Shown: positions 30,588 through 40,327 of the stretch, piece by piece
How the letters are laid out: each line of letters begins with the position of its first letter
Position numbering within the stretch: position 1 is the stretch's first letter
NCBI GenBank assembly: GCA_030550025.1
Contig: JAUQQC010000011.1
Span: forward strand, 1 to 40,327
Source of the DNA: Acidobacteriota bacterium
GTDB lineage: Bacteria; Acidobacteriota; Blastocatellia; HR10
Direction of reading: 5' to 3'
Length of the DNA stretch: 40,327 nucleotides
Translations under genes and position numbers: made by a program
Notes under the pieces: model-generated
Seen by the model: the letters and a program-made list of their open reading frames with translations, nothing else
Databases searched by the model: none
What the model was told of the DNA's origin: nothing

Positions 30588-30805
30588 ATGCCCTCCTGAA
30601 GCCAAGTTACGGGAGATGCGGTTTCACGACGCGCACATTGTACGCGAGGCATGGTCCGGCTGCCAAAAAGAAGCGACCAGGAAGGTGAGATTCCGTGAGC
30701 GTCGCTCGGCTTGCCGCAGACGATGTGTGATCAGCGCGAACTTTTTGTCGAACGCGCTAGACAGTGCGTGTTCCCTTCAGTAGATTCTCCGCAGGAGGTG
30801 CGGCA

Positions 30806-33223
30806 ATGGATGCCGGCGCGAACCGGGTGGGAACAGCGGCGTGGGTCTTGATTCTCCTGGCGCTCGCCTTTCGAGCAACCGCGGCATCGGACGATCCCGT
30901 GCTGCTCATCCGCATGCCCGATGAGACGGCTCTGGCGAGCGACCCTTCCGATGCCGACATCGCCCGCTTCGTCGCCGAGCGGAGCCCGTATGTGCAGATG
31001 ACCGCGCACGATCTCATGCGAGATCGAGCCTTCGCCCGCCAAGTGCTCGGGCAGCGGCAGATCTTCGAGGAACTGGCGGCCTTCCAGGCGCAAGAGGGCA
31101 TAACGGCGCGCGTGCGGTTCATCGCCTGGCCCGATGCCTTCCGCTTCTTCGCCGACTATGTCTCGGACAAGAGCAATCCGCCGATCGTCGCACAACTGGG
31201 CGATACCTGGGCGGCTTACTTTCGTTCGCTCGGCGTCGTGGCCTACGAACGGCGGCACACCTGGGACGTACGCGTGCTCTGGTATTGGAAAGATATGGTC
31301 GCGGCCCATGAGATCGCCGAGGGCGAGGGTTTTTTAACCGCCTGTCGCCGGCTTCATGACGCGCCGCTGCCGGGGCTCGTCGCGCCGCTGGCAATCCCAA
31401 CAGCTCCGGATTGGAATCTGCTTCACGATCTCTCGGTCTGGCTCTACAATGCCGGATTGCCCGCGCTGATCTCGACCGAGAAGAAGTTCGGCCTGCTTCC
31501 CTGGAAGGAAGCCATCTTCGCCGGTCCCGAAGGCGAACGGGCCGTCCATTTCCTCATTCAACTCGCCAAGCGGGGATACGTCGCGCTTCCCGAGAGGCGG
31601 AGCGTGGAACTGGCCGAAGATTTCCTGGCGCGAAAATATGCGATGGTCATTCTCGGGCCGTGGCTCACCAAACTGGCGGAGAAGGCGCTCGGCCCGGAGT
31701 GGCGCACTCGGATTGGGGCGACGTTGCCGCCGCGCATCGGCCCGGCAGCCGCCGCGACGATGAAGGGTGGATCGTTGCTTGTCGTGCTGGATCCGACGCG
31801 CGGGCGAAACCCCGAAGCCCTCGGACGCGCGCGACGACTGGTGGACTTTTTCTCCTCATCGGAGAGCCAACGGCGATATACCGAAGCTCTCGGAGCCCTT
31901 CCGGCCCGCGCAGAGGCCCTTGAAGCGTCTCCCTATTTCGATCTCTTCCAAACGGCGCTAGAGCAGGGACGAACCTACCCGGAAATTCCCGAATGGGCGC
32001 CGGTCGTCGAGAATTTAGCGACGCGAGACAATCTCTATGCCTTCTGGAAGCGGCTGTCGGTTCTGACCGATGTGCATGCGACGGCCACGGAAGCCGAGCA
32101 AACGGCGCGCGCCAGGCTGATTCTAGCCGCTCTGCATTCGGCGGAAGTGGACATCAATCGGGAGCTGTCTCCCGGACGATTCGCACTCCTCCGACCATGG
32201 CTTCTGGCGCTCGGGGGACTACTTCTGGCAGTAGCCGCGCTCTCGCTCTGGCACCGCCAGGTGGAACGGAAGCGCATCGAAGAACTCAGACAGACGCGCG
32301 ATCTTCTGGCCACGCTGCAACGGCGTCTGACGGCGACGCAGGACGATACCGTATCCCCACGGGATTCGTCCCAGAGCGCGACTTGGGCCGTGAAAGGCTA
32401 TCCCGCCCTCTACCTGGATGCTACCAAGCGGAAGGTCTATCTCCGTCGGTCACCCACGCACCCTCTGGAGGAAGTCATTCACGGGGCGGAATACGATCTG
32501 TTTCGGCACATCATCGAGTGTCTTCAGGCCGGATGGCACGAAACACATTGGATCTGGGGCTATGTGATCTGGCCGACGGCCCAACCGAAATTCCCCAAGG
32601 AAGCCTTCGCCACCCACTGTACGAAGCTGCGCAAGAAGATCGAAACCGCCTGGCAGCTCGGCCCCATGCTGGGCCGAGGCGCTTGCCACAGCGGCGTGAT
32701 CCCCATCGAGGTGAAGGACACGCACTTTTACACCGATGCCGCTCCGGAAGGGACAGCCTATCCTATCTGGGCCCTTTTTCATGCCTCGGAAAAGGCGCTG
32801 CAGGCTTATAGGGCGCACTCGTGGGAGGCAGTCTTGCACCACGCCAGGGAGCTTGTAACAATGGACCCGGAGAACTGGCTGGGCAATACGCTTGTTGGCC
32901 ATCTCGTCGTGCAAAAGCGCCTCGCGGCAGAAGACCCCCTCGCCCAGAGAGCCGTCGCCTTCGCGCATCAACAAAAATCTCACTATGACCAAGCGCTAGA
33001 GAAGACCGACCTCCTTCCCGAAAACAAAATCGAATTCGGAACAGAAAGAGCGCCTACAAGCTCGACGGGAGATCTTACAGCTCATCACCACGCACCAAGG
33101 GATGACGCAACTGACGGCCCCCCACGCCAAACCTCCCACCCCCTGGCGCAACCGCGATCAATTGCTGGCCTGGGTGGCCCATCTCAACGGAGAAAAATGC
33201 CCTCTCTCCGGCGAAGAAATTAA
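30806..33223 (+). CDS. One-component membrane regulator: periplasmic solute-binding domain, TM, cytoplasmic winged helix
   Basis: 805 residues. A signal/anchor (AAWVLILLALAFRATA) precedes a family-1 solute-binding-protein fold (about 30-450) with WPDAFRFFADYVSD, APDWNLLHDLSVWLYNAG and the typical ARRLVDFFSSSESQRRYTEA. One TM helix (PWLLALGGLLLAVAALSLW, about 465-483) and a basic coiled coil (RKRIEELRQTRDLLATLQRR) follow. Then comes a region (about 540-612) with GAEYDLFRHIIECLQAGW and THCTKLRKKIETAW that resembles an OmpR/PhoB winged helix, and a TPR-like segment (LQAYRAHSWEAVLHHARELV). AGGAGGTG lies before the ATG. The last 60 residues look out of frame (see next gene). Likely a ligand-sensing transcription regulator like CadC with the domain order reversed. 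Confidence 0.7.
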   Translation: MDAGANRVGTAAWVLILLALAFRATAASDDPVLLIRMPDETALASDPSDADIARFVAERSPYVQMTAHDLMRDRAFARQVLGQRQIFEELAAFQAQEGITARVRFIAWPDAFRFFADYVSDKSNPPIVAQLGDTWAAYFRSLGVVAYERRHTWDVRVLWYWKDMVAAHEIAEGEGFLTACRRLHDAPLPGLVAPLAIPTAPDWNLLHDLSVWLYNAGLPALISTEKKFGLLPWKEAIFAGPEGERAVHFLIQLAKRGYVALPERRSVELAEDFLARKYAMVILGPWLTKLAEKALGPEWRTRIGATLPPRIGPAAAATMKGGSLLVVLDPTRGRNPEALGRARRLVDFFSSSESQRRYTEALGALPARAEALEASPYFDLFQTALEQGRTYPEIPEWAPVVENLATRDNLYAFWKRLSVLTDVHATATEAEQTARARLILAALHSAEVDINRELSPGRFALLRPWLLALGGLLLAVAALSLWHRQVERKRIEELRQTRDLLATLQRRLTATQDDTVSPRDSSQSATWAVKGYPALYLDATKRKVYLRRSPTHPLEEVIHGAEYDLFRHIIECLQAGWHETHWIWGYVIWPTAQPKFPKEAFATHCTKLRKKIETAWQLGPMLGRGACHSGVIPIEVKDTHFYTDAAPEGTAYPIWALFHASEKALQAYRAHSWEAVLHHARELVTMDPENWLGNTLVGHLVVQKRLAAEDPLAQRAVAFAHQQKSHYDQALEKTDLLPENKIEFGTERAPTSSTGDLTAHHHAPRDDATDGPPRQTSHPLAQPRSIAGLGGPSQRRKMPSLRRRN

Positions 33224-33629
33224 AGCCCTTCGGGAAGTTCAACGCTTCCTCCACAACCATCTCCGATGGGCTGCTCCACAGCAGGTGGATGAGCATTTTC
33301 GCTCTTTCCTCCAGGACCTGGTCGGAGATCGCACGAGCTGGCCCGATGAGCGGTTGCCCCGAAGCAAACAGGCCTTCAAGAACCGGGCAGCAGATTATGT
33401 GCTGGCCAGTCTCTATGGCCTCACGGACGACGAAGAATCAAAGGCGATTACAAAAGCCCAGAATCTCAGAAAGCTGTGGAGCATAAGGACGCAATTGCGA
33501 AAGGAGCTTCATCAGGAGCCCACTTCTGAGCAACTCTCTTACGCCTGTCGGCAGCGCTACGGATGGAGTCCCTCCTTGGTCGAGCGCCTTCTCGATCTGG
33601 AGCGGTCGTCCCACCGGCGTTCTTTATAA
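33102..33629 (+). CDS. Unknown helical protein, possibly the frameshifted C-terminus of the regulator
   Basis: 175 residues that overlap the regulator frame by 122 bases in another frame. Protein-like sequence (EQKERLQARREILQLITTHQ) continues in this frame upstream of its ATG back to about 33039, with no start codon and only a weak ribosome site, while the regulator frame becomes low complexity there. This suggests one longer protein with a +1 shift near 33020-33040, natural or an assembly error. The C-terminal part (TQLRKELHQEPTSEQLSYAC, then SPSLVERLLDL) faintly resembles sigma-factor region 3 or another helix-turn-helix. Function unknown. Confidence 0.5.
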   Translation: MTQLTAPHAKPPTPWRNRDQLLAWVAHLNGEKCPLSGEEIKALREVQRFLHNHLRWAAPQQVDEHFRSFLQDLVGDRTSWPDERLPRSKQAFKNRAADYVLASLYGLTDDEESKAITKAQNLRKLWSIRTQLRKELHQEPTSEQLSYACRQRYGWSPSLVERLLDLERSSHRRSL

Positions 33630-33778: not shown

Positions 33779-34516
33779 ATGAAAAGAATTGGGCTGATTG
33801 TGATTTTTCTCAGCTTGACGGGGTGGCCCAGTGCACTGGCCGTCCCGCAGGCCAAAGAGGTTAAAGATGTGGTGGTTCTGCCTCGCGTCGTACACGGAGG
33901 CGATCCCCAATCGAAATTCTGCTTTGTCAAGGTGCTTCCGGTGGTCGCCTTTTCGGATTCCCAGGTGAGCCACCCCGGTCAGTTTGCCAACCGTCACGAC
34001 TGGGCGCTGTCGGAGGACGGCGAAGAACCCTTGGCCTTCGCTATTGAGGATTTCTTCGAGTTCAGCGTTGACTTGGTGCTTATCGGAACTCCGCCGGGTA
34101 CGAAATTTGCTGAACGGAAGGAGGGGGGAATCATCGTCACGACCTCCGTTGCCGGAGAGGGGCAATACATCGTCAACACGGATGCGCACGAGGTGGTCGC
34201 CTTCGGCGGGCCGTTCCCGTTTTACAAATTCGATCTGAGCTACACCTCGGGGGACGTCATCACGCTGGGAATCAAGTACTTCAAAGACACCGATGGCAAG
34301 CGCAAGATCATCTATCGGGCGAACGATAAGACGAGTCCGGCTCTGGAATTCACCAATCTTGAACAAGGGATTCCCGGCCCATTCTTCGTCAAGGGCTACA
34401 TCCAGACGGTGATCAACACGGAGATTCCGACCAACAGCGCAGCGGCCGGATTCACGAACATCCGGTGGAACGGCAAGCTTCTGACAGGCGGGACGACGGC
34501 GGGTGACTGCCGGTGA
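33779..34516 (+). CDS. Secreted protein of unknown function
   Basis: 245 residues. The signal peptide (MKRIGLIVIFLSLTGWPSALA) is followed by a beta-rich sequence with alternating strands and many Gly, Val and Thr (GGIIVTTSVAGEGQYIVNTD; FPFYKFDLSYTSGDVITLGI). Two cysteines, one near the N-terminus and one in the final GDCR, could pair. AGGGAGGTG lies six bases before the ATG. No family is recognised. It sits between the regulator and the TonB receptor on the same strand, so it is probably part of the same exported uptake system. Confidence 0.75.
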   Translation: MKRIGLIVIFLSLTGWPSALAVPQAKEVKDVVVLPRVVHGGDPQSKFCFVKVLPVVAFSDSQVSHPGQFANRHDWALSEDGEEPLAFAIEDFFEFSVDLVLIGTPPGTKFAERKEGGIIVTTSVAGEGQYIVNTDAHEVVAFGGPFPFYKFDLSYTSGDVITLGIKYFKDTDGKRKIIYRANDKTSPALEFTNLEQGIPGPFFVKGYIQTVINTEIPTNSAAAGFTNIRWNGKLLTGGTTAGDCR

Positions 34517-34681: not shown

Positions 34682-37600
34682 ATGCGACGTATCGCTCTAA
34701 CATGCGCCCGGTTCTTCACCTTGGGGATCCTCACGCTCGGCCTAACGGTCACCGGTCTCGCTCAATTCAAAGCAGGAGTTCAAGGGGTCGTGACCGATCC
34801 GACGGGTGCGATCATCCCCGGGGCGACGGTCACGCTCACCAGCCATGAGACGGGGAAGACGCAGCAAGTCGTTACCAGCGCCGAGGGGTTCTATCGCTTC
34901 TCCGGACTGCCGCCGGGGACGTATCGGATCACGGCGGAATATCCCGGATTCAAAAAGAAGGTCATCGAGAGCGTGATCGTCCGCGCCGAAGAGGTTCATG
35001 GCCTCGATCTCACCCTCGAACCGGGCGAGATCACTGAGACGCTCACGGTTCACGCCGGTGGAGAAGTCGTCGCCCTTCAGACCGAGAATCCCGATGTAAC
35101 CCGCGCCGTGACCAATCGCGAAGTGTTGCGGCTGCCGCAGTTCGGGCGCGATCCTTACGAGCTGATTCGCCTGACGCCGGGCGTTCTGGGCCTGGGCGCG
35201 CGCGGCAGCCGAGGCGAATCCGTCGGTCTGCCCAATACGACCGGCCCCGGCGGATCGAACGTCTCGATCTTCCAGGTCGAGAACCAGGTCCCCATCAGCG
35301 CCAACGGCCAGCGCCTGTCGGCCAACAACTACATGATTGACGGCGTCAGCGTCAACAGTCTCGGCTGGGCCGGAGCCGCCGTCGTCACGCCCAATCAAGA
35401 ATCGGTCAAAGAGATTCGCGTCTTCTCCAGCACCTATTCGGCCGAGTATGGCCGAAATACGGGCGCGCAGATTCAGGTCGTCTCGCAAAACGGAACGAAC
35501 GAACTTCACGGCAGCGCCGTCATCAAATACAACGATCCCGATCTGAACGCCTTCAATCGCTGGGGCGGGATCACGGGCGATCCGAACCGCGATGCGCCTC
35601 CGGTGCGGGTGGAACAGCTCTATCGTCAGTTCGCCGGAAGTCTCGGCGGGCCCATCGTCAAGAATCGGCTCTTTTTCTTCTTCTCCTACGAGGGTCTGCG
35701 CAGCAACAACACGGACTTCGTGAGCACGTGGATCGAGACGCCCGAATTTCGGCAACTGGTCAGGCAGCAGCGAGCGGGCGGAGTGACGGCGCGAATCTTC
35801 GCGGCGGAAGGGATCGCGCCGCGCGCTCTCACGGTTCTGCCCGCGGATTGTTCCCTCTTTCTCAACGATCCGCGTCGCTGCCAGGCGGTCGCGGGAGGCT
35901 TAGACATCGGATCGCTCACGGGAAGCCTCGGTCGCTATGTTCCCGTCAGCAACACGGTGGGCGGAGGGCTCGACGGCATCCCCGATATTCAGTTCGTCCG
36001 CGTCGCTCTGCCCAACATCACTCGCGGAGATCAATTCAACGCCCGCGTGGATTTCACCCGCGGCACCGATCAGTTTGCCGTGAGCACGTACATCACGCGC
36101 CGCAACGACTTCAAGAACCTCGCCCAGAGTCGTCCCATCGGAGACCTTCGATCGCGACCATTGAATTCGGCGGGCACGGTGACCTGGATTCGCGCGCTCG
36201 CGCCCACGCTGCTTAACGAGTGGCGGGCGAATTTCACCCGCTTCGCCTTCAATGAGGTGAAGGACAATCCTGAGGCCAATTGGGGCATTCCTCGTGTTGA
36301 GGTCGAAGGGCCTTCGGCGCTGCGGCTGGAAATCGGAGTGATCCGCGCGGAGACGACCCCGGGCATCTTCGCTCAAAACACTTACGAAGTTCGGGATACG
36401 CTCACCTGGGTGCGCGGCAACAGGACGCTCAAATTCGGCGCTGAGATTCGCCGCGAGCAGGACAACAACAATCTCGCCGGCGGCGCCCGCCCGCTTTATG
36501 TCTTCCGCGGGTTGTACAACCTGGCCAACGATGCGCCCTATCTCGAAGCGATCAACGCCGATCCGGGCACCGGCTTGCCCGCCGATGCTCAGCGCTACTT
36601 CCGCTACACGTACTATGGCTTCTTCGTTCAGAACGATTGGAAGGTTCGTCCCACCCTCACGCTGAATCTCGGACTCCGCTATGAATACTTCACCCCGCTT
36701 CGAGAGAAGCGTCGTCGCTTGAGTAACCTCGTCTTCCCGCCCGGACAACTCGACCGGTCGCGGATCGTCGTGACCGATCAACTCTTTGAGCCGGATCGAA
36801 ACAATTTCGCTCCTCGACTCGGCTTGGCGTGGAGCCCGAAGGCGTGGAAAGATAAGCTCGTGCTGCGGGGGGGATTCGGCATCGGCTACAACCGCATTCC
36901 CGGCGTGCTCTTTGGCAACACGCGGGGGAACCCGCCGTTTTTCGCCCGCCATTTCCTCTGCTGCGGAGGATCGGCTTCTGAAGGGCTCTTTCCCTTCGCC
37001 GGCGGTCGCATCCTCTACGTGCTGGGCACGAGCCGTGCGCTGACGAGCTATCCGTTGAATCCGGCGCTGGCGCAGGGCATTGATCCCGAGACCGGAGGCG
37101 TGCGCGGCAGCCGGGTCGAGATTTACGGCACGGAGCGAAAGGTACCCAACGCCTACGTCTACTTCTGGTCGCTGGAGACCGAGTATCAACTGCCGGGGAA
37201 CGTCACGGCGTCGCTCGGCTATCAAGCCAGCAGCAGCCACAAGCTCATTCGCATCATCAATCAGAACCTGCTCTATCCCCGCAATCCGTTTTTCGGTCCC
37301 GTCTTCTTCCTCTTGCCGGACGTCAACGCCAACTATCACGCCATGCTCGCCCGGCTGACGCATCCGTTCTCACGCGGATTCCGACTCGATGTGAGCTACC
37401 GCTTCGGCAAGAGTATTGACACGCTCTCTTACGAAGGGCCGGGGGCGCCGACGAATCAAACCTATCCGAGCGACCTTCGGTCCGAGCGCGGCCCATCGGA
37501 TTACGATGTGCGGCATCATGTCGTCATCTCGGCGCTGTGGGATCTGCCGATCCTGCGCACGCGCACCGATTTTTGGGGCAGGGCCTTCGGCGGCTGGCAG

Positions 37601-38089
37601 CTCAACGGCATCTGGACGATCTCCACGGGCTTCCCCTATACGGTGAAGATCGGCCAGAGCTTACGCTTCGCCAACGGCGAGCCCTGGGGGCCAATACGCC
37701 CGACTCGCTATTTCGGTGGTGCGCTCACGGACTCGAACGATCGGGCGTTCATTCGACCGGGCGGCAATTTCCCCGGCGGCGGCGCACGCTATTTCGACAT
37801 CTCGACGATCGGTCCTCCGGGCATCGGACGCAATTCGTTTCGCGGGCCGGGCTATCGGAGCGTGGACCTCAGCCTGGTGAAAGAGACGGCGCTGCCGCGC
37901 ATTCCGGGACTCGGCGAGGCCGCTCGGCTCGAAATCCGGTTCAACTTCCTCAACGCTCTCAACGAGCTGAACCTGCAACCGCTCGGCTTCTTCGACGAGG
38001 GCGTCTTCGCCGATCGCCCGAACTTCGGCCGGGCGACGCGGGGACTCGCCGGTCGCATCATCGAGGTCCAAGCGCGGTTCAGTTTCTGA
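34682..38089 (+). CDS. TonB-dependent receptor, Oar-like, with carboxypeptidase-regulatory domain
   Basis: 1135 residues. After the signal peptide (ITLG-like LTLGLTVTGLAQ) comes a carboxypeptidase-regulatory/CnaB-like domain (about 28-105: GVVTDPTGAIIPGATVTLTS; FSGLPPGTYRITAEYPGF), a plug with NNYMIDGVSVNS and EIRVFSSTYSAEYGRNTGAQ, and a 22-strand barrel ending in aromatic VQARFSF. This is the Oar-like group that is expanded in Acidobacteria. It imports large ligands, often oligosaccharides, using TonB energy. GGAGGTCGAACC precedes the ATG. No TonB box was picked with confidence, and no SusD partner is present. Confidence 0.95.
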   Translation: MRRIALTCARFFTLGILTLGLTVTGLAQFKAGVQGVVTDPTGAIIPGATVTLTSHETGKTQQVVTSAEGFYRFSGLPPGTYRITAEYPGFKKKVIESVIVRAEEVHGLDLTLEPGEITETLTVHAGGEVVALQTENPDVTRAVTNREVLRLPQFGRDPYELIRLTPGVLGLGARGSRGESVGLPNTTGPGGSNVSIFQVENQVPISANGQRLSANNYMIDGVSVNSLGWAGAAVVTPNQESVKEIRVFSSTYSAEYGRNTGAQIQVVSQNGTNELHGSAVIKYNDPDLNAFNRWGGITGDPNRDAPPVRVEQLYRQFAGSLGGPIVKNRLFFFFSYEGLRSNNTDFVSTWIETPEFRQLVRQQRAGGVTARIFAAEGIAPRALTVLPADCSLFLNDPRRCQAVAGGLDIGSLTGSLGRYVPVSNTVGGGLDGIPDIQFVRVALPNITRGDQFNARVDFTRGTDQFAVSTYITRRNDFKNLAQSRPIGDLRSRPLNSAGTVTWIRALAPTLLNEWRANFTRFAFNEVKDNPEANWGIPRVEVEGPSALRLEIGVIRAETTPGIFAQNTYEVRDTLTWVRGNRTLKFGAEIRREQDNNNLAGGARPLYVFRGLYNLANDAPYLEAINADPGTGLPADAQRYFRYTYYGFFVQNDWKVRPTLTLNLGLRYEYFTPLREKRRRLSNLVFPPGQLDRSRIVVTDQLFEPDRNNFAPRLGLAWSPKAWKDKLVLRGGFGIGYNRIPGVLFGNTRGNPPFFARHFLCCGGSASEGLFPFAGGRILYVLGTSRALTSYPLNPALAQGIDPETGGVRGSRVEIYGTERKVPNAYVYFWSLETEYQLPGNVTASLGYQASSSHKLIRIINQNLLYPRNPFFGPVFFLLPDVNANYHAMLARLTHPFSRGFRLDVSYRFGKSIDTLSYEGPGAPTNQTYPSDLRSERGPSDYDVRHHVVISALWDLPILRTRTDFWGRAFGGWQLNGIWTISTGFPYTVKIGQSLRFANGEPWGPIRPTRYFGGALTDSNDRAFIRPGGNFPGGGARYFDISTIGPPGIGRNSFRGPGYRSVDLSLVKETALPRIPGLGEAARLEIRFNFLNALNELNLQPLGFFDEGVFADRPNFGRATRGLAGRIIEVQARFSF

Positions 38090-38105: not shown

Positions 38106-40327
38106 ATGCGCCAGCACGCAAGCGGCTACCACAGCAGAAGCGCCAGAAGGGGCAAGCGCACGATCTGGATGATCAGTCTGATGAGCGTCCTGTTTCTGAT
38201 CGGGATACCTGTTCCCCCCGCGTCGCCCGCCGATGAGATCGAGCGCAAGATTGACGCCCTGCTCCGGCAGATGACGCTCGAAGAGAAGCTCGGGCAGCTT
38301 CAGATGCTCGATGGCGATGTGGATGGCTCTTATCGCCCCGATCATCTCGACCTCGTGCGGCGTGGGCTCGTGGGCGCGTTCCTCAACGTGCGGGGAGCGC
38401 GCCGCGTGAACGAATTGCAGCGGATCGCCGTCGAGGAGTCGAGACTGAAGATCCCGCTTCTTTTCGGCTTCGATGTCCTGCACGGCTATCGGACGATCTT
38501 CCCCGTGCCTCTTGCGGAAGCGAGCAGTTGGGATCCCGTGGCCGTCGAACGGGCCGCCAGCATCGCGGCCGCTGAAGCGCGGGCGGCCGGCGTCACTTGG
38601 ACCTTCGCGCCGATGGTGGACATCGCCCGCGATCCCCGCTGGGGCCGCATCGTCGAAGGCTCGGGCGAAGACCCCTATCTGGGCTCGGTCATGGCGCGTG
38701 CCCGCGTGCGGGGATTTCAAGGGCACGACTACAGCGCTTCAGATCGAGTCCTCGCCTGCGCCAAACACTTCGTCGGCTACGGCGCGGCCGAAGGCGGACG
38801 CGATTACAACACGACCGATATGTCCGAACGCACGCTGCGGGAGGTTTACCTGCCGCCGTTTCGAGCGGCCGTCGAAGCGGGCGTGGGAACGATCATGAGC
38901 GCCTTCAATGATCTCAACGGCATCCCGGCCTCGGCCAATCCCTTCACGCTGACGACCATTCTGCGCGGCGAGTGGAAATTCGACGGCTTCGTCGTGAGCG
39001 ATTACACGGCCATCGAGGAACTCATCGCGCACGGGCTCGCCGCCGACGGCGCCGAAGCCGCGCGGCGTGCGCTCGAAGCCGGCGTGGACATGGAGATGGT
39101 GAGCCGCCTCTATAGCCAACATGTGCCGCAGCTCGTCAAAGACGGCAAGCTCGCGATGGCCGCTCTGGATGAAGCGGTGCGGCGCGTGCTCCGGATCAAA
39201 TTCCGATTGGGATTGTTCGAGCGTCCTTACGCCGACGAGGCGCGCGAGCGCGCCGTGCTTCTCCGCCCGGAGCATCGAGCGGCGGCGCGCGAGATGGCCG
39301 CGCGTTCGATCGTGCTCTTGAAGAACGATGGTCGCCTGCTGCCGCTCAGCAAGACGGTGCGAACGCTCGCCGTCATCGGACCGCTGGCCGACGATCAACG
39401 AAATCTGCTCGGCCCTTGGTCGGGAGATGGACGCGCCGAGGATGTCGTCACTATCCTCGCGGGCATCAAGGCGAAGCTGGGGTCAACGGCGCGAGTCCTT
39501 CACGCGCGAGGGTGCGAGATCGCCGACTGCTCCTCCAGCGAAATCGCCGAAGCCGTGCGCATCGCCCGCCAGGCTGAGGTCGCCATCGTCGTCGTCGGGG
39601 AATCGGCGGAGATGAGCGGCGAAGCGGCCTCGCGCGCCTCGCTCGATCTGCCGGGACGACAACTCGATTTGGTGAAAGCGATCCAGGCCACCGGCACGCC
39701 GACGGTCGTCGTGCTCGTCAACGGACGTCCGCTCACCATCCCCTGGATCGCCGAGCACGTCCCGGCCATTCTCGAAACCTGGTTCGCCGGCACCGAAGCG
39801 GGTCACGCGATCGCCGACGTGCTCTTTGGCGATGTGAACCCCGGCGCCAAACTGCCCGTGACGTTCCCCCGCTCGGTCGGCCAGATTCCGATCTACTACA
39901 ACCACAAGATGACGGGCAGACCGCCGAGCCCGACGAACAAGTACACGTCCAAGTATCTCGACGAAGAGGTGACGCCGCTTTTCCCATTCGGCCACGGGTT
40001 GAGCTACACGGAATTTCGCTTCACGAACCTACAGCTCAGCGCGCGGCGGATTCGACCCGATGAACAACTGACGGTCAGCGTGGAGGTGGAAAACGTCGGC
40101 CCACGCGCGGGCGACGAAGTCGTCCAGCTCTACATTCGCGATGTGGCGGCCAGCGTGACGCGACCGGTCCGGGAACTGAAAGGCTTCCAGAGGATCGCCC
40201 TGCGACCGGGAGAAAAGCGCCGCGTCACGTTCGCGCTCGGGCCGGAGCACCTGGGCTTTTACGATCGTCAGATGCGGTTTGTCGTTGAGCCGGGAGAATT
40301 TCGCGTCTTCGTTGGCGCCAGCTCCGT
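38106..40327 (+). CDS. Secreted GH3 beta-glucosidase (3' end outside window)
   Basis: 740 codons are visible before the window ends; a BglX-type enzyme is only slightly longer, so a few tens of residues at most are missing. The signal peptide (ISLMSVLFLIGIPVPPASP) is followed by the GH3 TIM barrel with KHFVGYGAAEGGRDYNTTDM and the nucleophile Asp299 in GFVVSDY, then the alpha/beta sandwich (GRLLPLSKTVRTLAVIGPLA) and a C-terminal fibronectin-III-like domain (VGPRAGDEVVQLYIRDV). It hydrolyses beta-glucosides or related oligosaccharides. The start at 38106 has only a weak GAGCG site; an ATG 21 codons in is possible. It follows the TonB receptor by 16 bases, so they are probably cotranscribed. 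Confidence 0.95.
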   Translation, partial: MRQHASGYHSRSARRGKRTIWMISLMSVLFLIGIPVPPASPADEIERKIDALLRQMTLEEKLGQLQMLDGDVDGSYRPDHLDLVRRGLVGAFLNVRGARRVNELQRIAVEESRLKIPLLFGFDVLHGYRTIFPVPLAEASSWDPVAVERAASIAAAEARAAGVTWTFAPMVDIARDPRWGRIVEGSGEDPYLGSVMARARVRGFQGHDYSASDRVLACAKHFVGYGAAEGGRDYNTTDMSERTLREVYLPPFRAAVEAGVGTIMSAFNDLNGIPASANPFTLTTILRGEWKFDGFVVSDYTAIEELIAHGLAADGAEAARRALEAGVDMEMVSRLYSQHVPQLVKDGKLAMAALDEAVRRVLRIKFRLGLFERPYADEARERAVLLRPEHRAAAREMAARSIVLLKNDGRLLPLSKTVRTLAVIGPLADDQRNLLGPWSGDGRAEDVVTILAGIKAKLGSTARVLHARGCEIADCSSSEIAEAVRIARQAEVAIVVVGESAEMSGEAASRASLDLPGRQLDLVKAIQATGTPTVVVLVNGRPLTIPWIAEHVPAILETWFAGTEAGHAIADVLFGDVNPGAKLPVTFPRSVGQIPIYYNHKMTGRPPSPTNKYTSKYLDEEVTPLFPFGHGLSYTEFRFTNLQLSARRIRPDEQLTVSVEVENVGPRAGDEVVQLYIRDVAASVTRPVRELKGFQRIALRPGEKRRVTFALGPEHLGFYDRQMRFVVEPGEFRVFVGASS

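Follow-up and report, generated by a model that had tools for sequence, protein, structure and literature searches.

A predicted sugar-responsive, membrane-integrated one-component regulator with an N-terminal solute-binding sensor in Blastocatellia

The window, a stretch of 40,327 nucleotides, comes from a 3.17 Mb genome that is 98.7% complete. Among named genomes, those most closely related to it are HRbin10, HRbin08, an uncultured Blastocatellia bacterium and Pyrinomonas (Blastocatellia, Acidobacteriota). An open reading frame at 30806-33223 on the forward strand, confirmed here, encodes the regulator described below. It is preceded by a divergent TolC-type gene, as in L019, L020 and G003, and followed on the same strand by genes for an exported protein of about 245-250 amino acids that was annotated without a Pfam family (33779-34516), an Oar-like TonB-dependent receptor with OMP_b-brl_4 and CarboxypepD_reg domains (34682-38089), and a GH3 glycoside hydrolase that is cut by the window end (38106-40327). 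The receptor and the GH3 enzyme, the latter extending beyond the window, are thus the neighbours named in the original prediction. The gene after GH3, outside the window, encodes an endo-beta-1,2-glucanase-like enzyme recognised by its profile match to PF10091 (G000:C4:40435-41763). About 40-50 bp before the start codon of the regulator, an inverted repeat, GCGCT-N4-AG(t)GC (30754-30767, +), is conserved in five related genomes and constitutes a candidate operator or promoter-associated element. A role as a locus-wide operator was rejected, as the repeat is absent at the other locus genes and does not recur in the window beyond chance.

Alignments to intact homologues place a frameshift at 33030-33040 (+), near position 33035, where the sequence lengths of the window and of its closest relative, L019, are one base apart. 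The window protein departs from its homologues past residue 743, the final ~62 residues of the open reading frame are out of frame, and the remaining part of the regulator continues in the +1 frame as far as 33629. The previously proposed end of the regulator at 33223 is therefore due to the frameshift. The in-frame homologous part (30806-33034, +; residues 1-743) covers the hydrophobic N-terminus, the solute-binding protein (SBP) domain, the transmembrane (TM) helix, a long helix, a winged-helix-like region and most of a TPR region, whereas the seven intact homologues reach 945-967 amino acids. A match of residues 746-804 to G030 falls in the frameshifted frame and was disregarded. Since the part past the frameshift is still 91% identical to L019, the frameshift is either an assembly or sequencing error or a recent break of the window copy. 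This persisting identity, together with intact copies in seven genomes, makes it doubtful, though quite possible, that the window copy is a pseudogene truncated after the TPR region, as the frameshift itself and the decay of the locus in relatives (a deletion in G003 and a fragment in G005, see below) might suggest. A pseudogene would be compatible with any reading of the intact family.

The protein starts with a hydrophobic, signal-peptide-like segment identified by hydropathy (residues 8-26; 30827-30883, +), followed by a solute-binding domain of family 1/8 (residues 28-455; 30887-32170, +). Residues 156-374 match Pfam SBP_bac_8 over the curated cut-off (E 2.4e-9), and the regulator and its relatives score 37.3-44.2 bits against a cut-off of 27, which bears out the proposal of a complete family-1 SBP outside the membrane. 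A profile of the domain has its best matches in the PDB in CbpB (1.3e-22) and a Thermus beta-glycoside-binding protein, and a weaker match in Lin1841, the beta-1,2-gluco-oligosaccharide SBP of Listeria innocua; the closest solved relatives of the domain bind beta-gluco-oligosaccharides. The assignment rests on sequence, because the first AF2 model gives the SBP domain with low confidence. The single TM helix that had been proposed is recovered as a hydropathy peak at residues 461-483 (32186-32254, +), with positive charges C-terminal of it (the segment right after it reads WHRQVERKR), and the peak recurs in 9/9 homologues examined. Hydropathy and positive-inside charges thus point to one TM and a periplasmic sensor, as in the ToxR/CadC regulators. 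In the AF2 model, one continuous helix spans the TM and the linker (residues 465-524, L024 numbering), consistent with the anticipated coiled coil between the membrane and the cytoplasmic domains (32255-32350, +).

The cytoplasmic part consists of three blocks, namely a winged-helix-like region, TPR-type repeats and a helical C-terminal domain; the original prediction had recognised the coiled coil and the first of these blocks, and missed the other two. The winged-helix-like domain (32390-32740, +) was delimited by AF2, profile comparison, invariant columns and dN/dS. It has a predicted b-b-b-a-a-a order with KEAFATHCTKLRKKIE as candidate recognition helix. In the structure prediction that had been suggested as a check, the block 529-645 shows strands at 547-551, 556-560 and 568-572, followed by helices at 574-588, 590-605 and 611-629 (L024 numbering). 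This is the order found in OmpR/PhoB, predicted with modest confidence: the pLDDT is about 70-80 over the strands and the first helix and lower beyond, and the wing is modelled without confidence. The third helix, FATHCTKLRKKIE, is similar to the Trans_reg_C recognition helix, and its H-x3-LRKKIE pattern fits OmpR/PhoB. Using hhalign against 19 Trans_reg_C domains from related genomes, the whole domain aligns in register with a score of 19.2, which was exceeded by two of 200 column shuffles (21.0 and 21.1; mean 12), corresponding to about p 0.01. The isolated region has no match in Pfam, PF00486 included, and a profile scan of the output region found no Pfam or NCBIfam family. The structural matches of either model list no winged helix, because TPR folds fill these lists and make them uninformative on the fold. 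Of the winged-helix claim, the strand/helix order and the register fit stand, whereas the profile match reaches only the above significance and a Pfam match is lacking; region 530-640 is likely to be a winged helix, with a probability somewhat above even.

The TPR-type helical repeats (32741-33034, +) were assigned by structural comparison and Pfam. Their helices are modelled with a pLDDT of 85-95, and in VIA comparisons the stretch matches TPR proteins with Z 7-9 (up to 8.8), as expected of a TPR fold; the Pfam TPR_2 match in L024 (0.004) lies below the family cut-off. The C-terminal helical domain, encoded in the +1 frame of the window copy (33102-33629, +), was delimited from homologues, AF2 and Foldseek and has a pLDDT of about 75-90. 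It contains the motif LRKLWxxRxxLRKxLxxEPTxEQL, which resembles the beginning of sigma-70 region 3. Foldseek returns many sigma-factor chains of RNA polymerase complexes (E 0.1-0.7), VIA aligns the model of residues 819-945 with M. tuberculosis sigma-B (Z 6.8, 109 residues, 4.9 A), Pfam Sigma70_r3 is weakly matched in two members (E 0.08 and 0.13), and hhalign against the relatives' RpoD scores 29.4, compared with a column-shuffle maximum of 17.8. These matches would fit a receptor of the same kind with a sigma-factor-like module (region 2-3) at its C-terminus, through which it touches the promoter or RNA polymerase. Such a module is nevertheless improbable: the Foldseek and Pfam E-values are non-significant, Z values below 8 are common for helical models, block shuffles reach 26.2 and reduce the sequence signal to one 26-residue motif, single-sequence scores fall within those of decoys, and a sequence search of the PDB with the output profiles gave chance matches only. 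After the block-shuffle control, the sigma-like domain is a lead only. It would be a long shot that a degenerate region 2-3 domain, placed after the winged helix and the TPR domain of this membrane-spanning receptor, lets a single protein combine sugar sensing and promoter binding with supplying or mimicking a sigma contact with RNA polymerase.

Eight Blastocatellia proteins share the layout, from the hydrophobic N-terminus and the SBP through the TM and the long helix to the cytoplasmic domains. The TM is present in each of them, so that the membrane helix, the absence of which would have spoken against the original prediction, is kept throughout. By the output profile, a full or, in the window, frameshifted copy occurs in 8/162 genomes of the class, and Pyrinomonas methylaliphatogenes K22 is an isolate with an intact copy. 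The same profile detects no additional member in 396 genomes of the phylum, where the weak matches stem from TPR repeats or from stretches of large open reading frames that match by chance. With the SBP profile, the phylum sample yields no other long fusion, the remaining matches being open reading frames of ordinary SBP length (440-580 amino acids). A phage collection contains nothing for the output region and a plasmid collection SBP relatives only. As judged from these searches, the family has few members, and within the genomes searched all of them belong to Blastocatellia. The layout is not due to chance, since the proteins of the eight genomes share roughly 60-90% identity and dN/dS is 0.13-0.22 in every cytoplasmic domain measured, the C-terminal domain being represented by intact homologue pairs only. 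In the winged-helix-like region, dN/dS is 0.13-0.15 and as low as in the SBP domain.

G005, a member of the same taxonomic family but of another genus, carries an SBP+TM module homologous to that of the regulator (58% identity) that is joined to PAS-HisKA-HATPase domains (L026:5909-8527, -; domain scan). The genes after this kinase, read from their translations, encode a FixJ-type protein with a receiver and a LuxR-HTH (L026:5320-5934, -) and a second receiver (L026:4755-5162, -). HisKA and HATPase domains are absent from the regulator-type members scanned and were found only in L007. The claim that the regulator works without a kinase is thereby upheld, but a kinase-free single-protein sensor is not the whole story, since in the sister genus this sensor is coupled to a histidine kinase. 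The kinase-borne sensor acts with a separate DNA-binding part, while the kinase-less sensor is fused to its output block; the output appears to have been swapped in evolution. Because the same SBP+TM ends in a histidine kinase in G005, it is a signal-transduction input module, and this modularity is the best indirect argument for a regulatory role. It also bears on the unlikely case of a transmembrane sugar receptor that does not bind DNA and whose TPR and helical domains sequester or recruit another regulator or RNA polymerase. In its favour, no cytoplasmic fold other than TPR is assigned with confidence, and the winged helix is unproven; however, the order of strands and helices and the H-x3-LRKKIE helix fit OmpR/PhoB, the winged-helix-like region is as constrained as the SBP domain, and the output of the kinase version is a DNA-binding response regulator.

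The G005 genome also contains a 629-bp copy (G005:C58, L017:1505-2133) that is 91% identical to window 30731-31359, covering the leader and the first ~184 regulator codons. It adjoins a thioredoxin-like gene, even though the sensor that the genome itself carries reaches only 58% identity. This copy represents a transfer, a remnant or binning contamination.

The order regulator, exported protein, TonB receptor, GH3 and PF10091 enzyme is shared by the window, L019 and L021, while the L020 contig ends after the exported protein, the gene for which lies beside that of the regulator wherever the region is intact within the genus. In L022 the TonB receptor adjoins the regulator and in L024 a GH5 enzyme does; the locus make-up differs in L006 and L024. 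The inspection of homologue neighbourhoods proposed at the outset thus shows that TonB receptor and glycosidase neighbours are kept within the genus. It also makes it very improbable that the protein is a membrane-anchored SBP serving an ABC importer, with a cytoplasmic part that controls the transporter. The homologues of the SBP domain are ABC-transporter SBPs and permease pairs exist elsewhere in the genome, but no permease gene lies beside the homologues with annotated neighbourhood, the neighbours being the TonB receptor and hydrolases, and the sensor also sits on a histidine kinase.

The closest matches of the PF10091 enzyme are XCC2207, which is XcSGL (PMC12102758), and an endo-beta-1,2-glucanase, and the GH3 enzyme matches Lin1840 (2e-175). 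Together with the matches of the SBP domain, these similarities indicate beta-glucans as the likely target, probably beta-1,2-glucan, and the ligand would be of this class. In G003, which belongs to the same genus, a single clean deletion of about 9.5 kb, from window 31309 to C4:40809, has removed the greater part of the regulator, the three genes after it and a portion of the fourth; at its junction (L027:4489/4490), codon ~168 of the regulator meets the middle of the gene for the PF10091 glucanase. The regulator and its putative target genes were thus lost together. Another TonB-receptor-like protein is encoded a few kb downstream (G000:C4:45210-48407; L025:4883-8080, -) and shares 26-34% identity with the window receptor; a metallo-beta-lactamase-fold protein is encoded nearby.

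The protein is best explained, with reasonable though not high confidence, as a bitopic, membrane-integrated one-component receptor-regulator of its own beta-glucan, probably beta-1,2-glucan, locus. The co-encoded enzymes would release beta-gluco-oligosaccharide, which would be imported by the TonB receptor and bind to the periplasmic SBP domain. Closure of this domain would be passed on through the TM and the long helix and change the dimerisation or orientation of the winged-helix-like/TPR/C-terminal block in the cytoplasm. This block would then bind the promoter region of the locus and, presumably by activation rather than repression, raise transcription of the genes for the exported protein, the TonB receptor, GH3 and the beta-1,2-glucanase-like enzyme. 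The SBP+TM offers a modular sugar sensor, and its occurrence with a one-component output in most members and with a histidine kinase in a sister genus is a natural experiment in which closely related proteins allow tests of how evolution moves between one- and two-component signalling.

AfsR and the SARPs, which combine a winged helix with a BTAD TPR domain, are like the regulator in that its winged-helix-like region is followed by TPR, but they are soluble. A chain of the AfsR complex (8hvr_I) is a weak structural match (E 1.5), and neither a Pfam match for Trans_reg_C or BTAD nor a significant sequence match to SARPs was found. SgrR consists of a winged helix and a solute-binding domain and resembles the regulator in joining an SBP-type sensor to a (here likely) winged helix; unlike the regulator, it is cytoplasmic, has the reversed order and a different SBP family, and lacks a TM. 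SBP Pfam domains are already known to serve as sensors in kinases and in transcriptional regulators (PMC9602780), which limits the novelty, although a limited literature search found no description of an SBP-TM receptor with a C-terminal winged helix. TfoS of Vibrio is a chitin-responsive, membrane-bound and oligosaccharide-responsive regulator without two-component signature domains (PMC7564644). Its sensor is HTCS-like and its output AraC-type, in contrast to the SBP and winged-helix-like/TPR domains found here. TfoS has the same sensor-first order as the regulator. Membrane-integrated one-component regulators of the ToxR/CadC type carry the DNA-binding domain first (PMC5936718). They share with the regulator the bitopic topology, a periplasmic sensor, one TM and the absence of phosphoryl chemistry, and likely also a DNA-binding domain of the winged-helix type. 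As originally noted, however, the order is the opposite: instead of an N-terminal winged helix, a TM and a C-terminal sensor, all members have the sensor N-terminal, in the form of a full SBP, and add TPR and helical domains. Because the defining domain order is reversed, the regulator is not a member of ToxR/CadC, though it likely works alike, and the short list of membrane-integrated one-component regulators is extended by a design in which an SBP sensor comes first.
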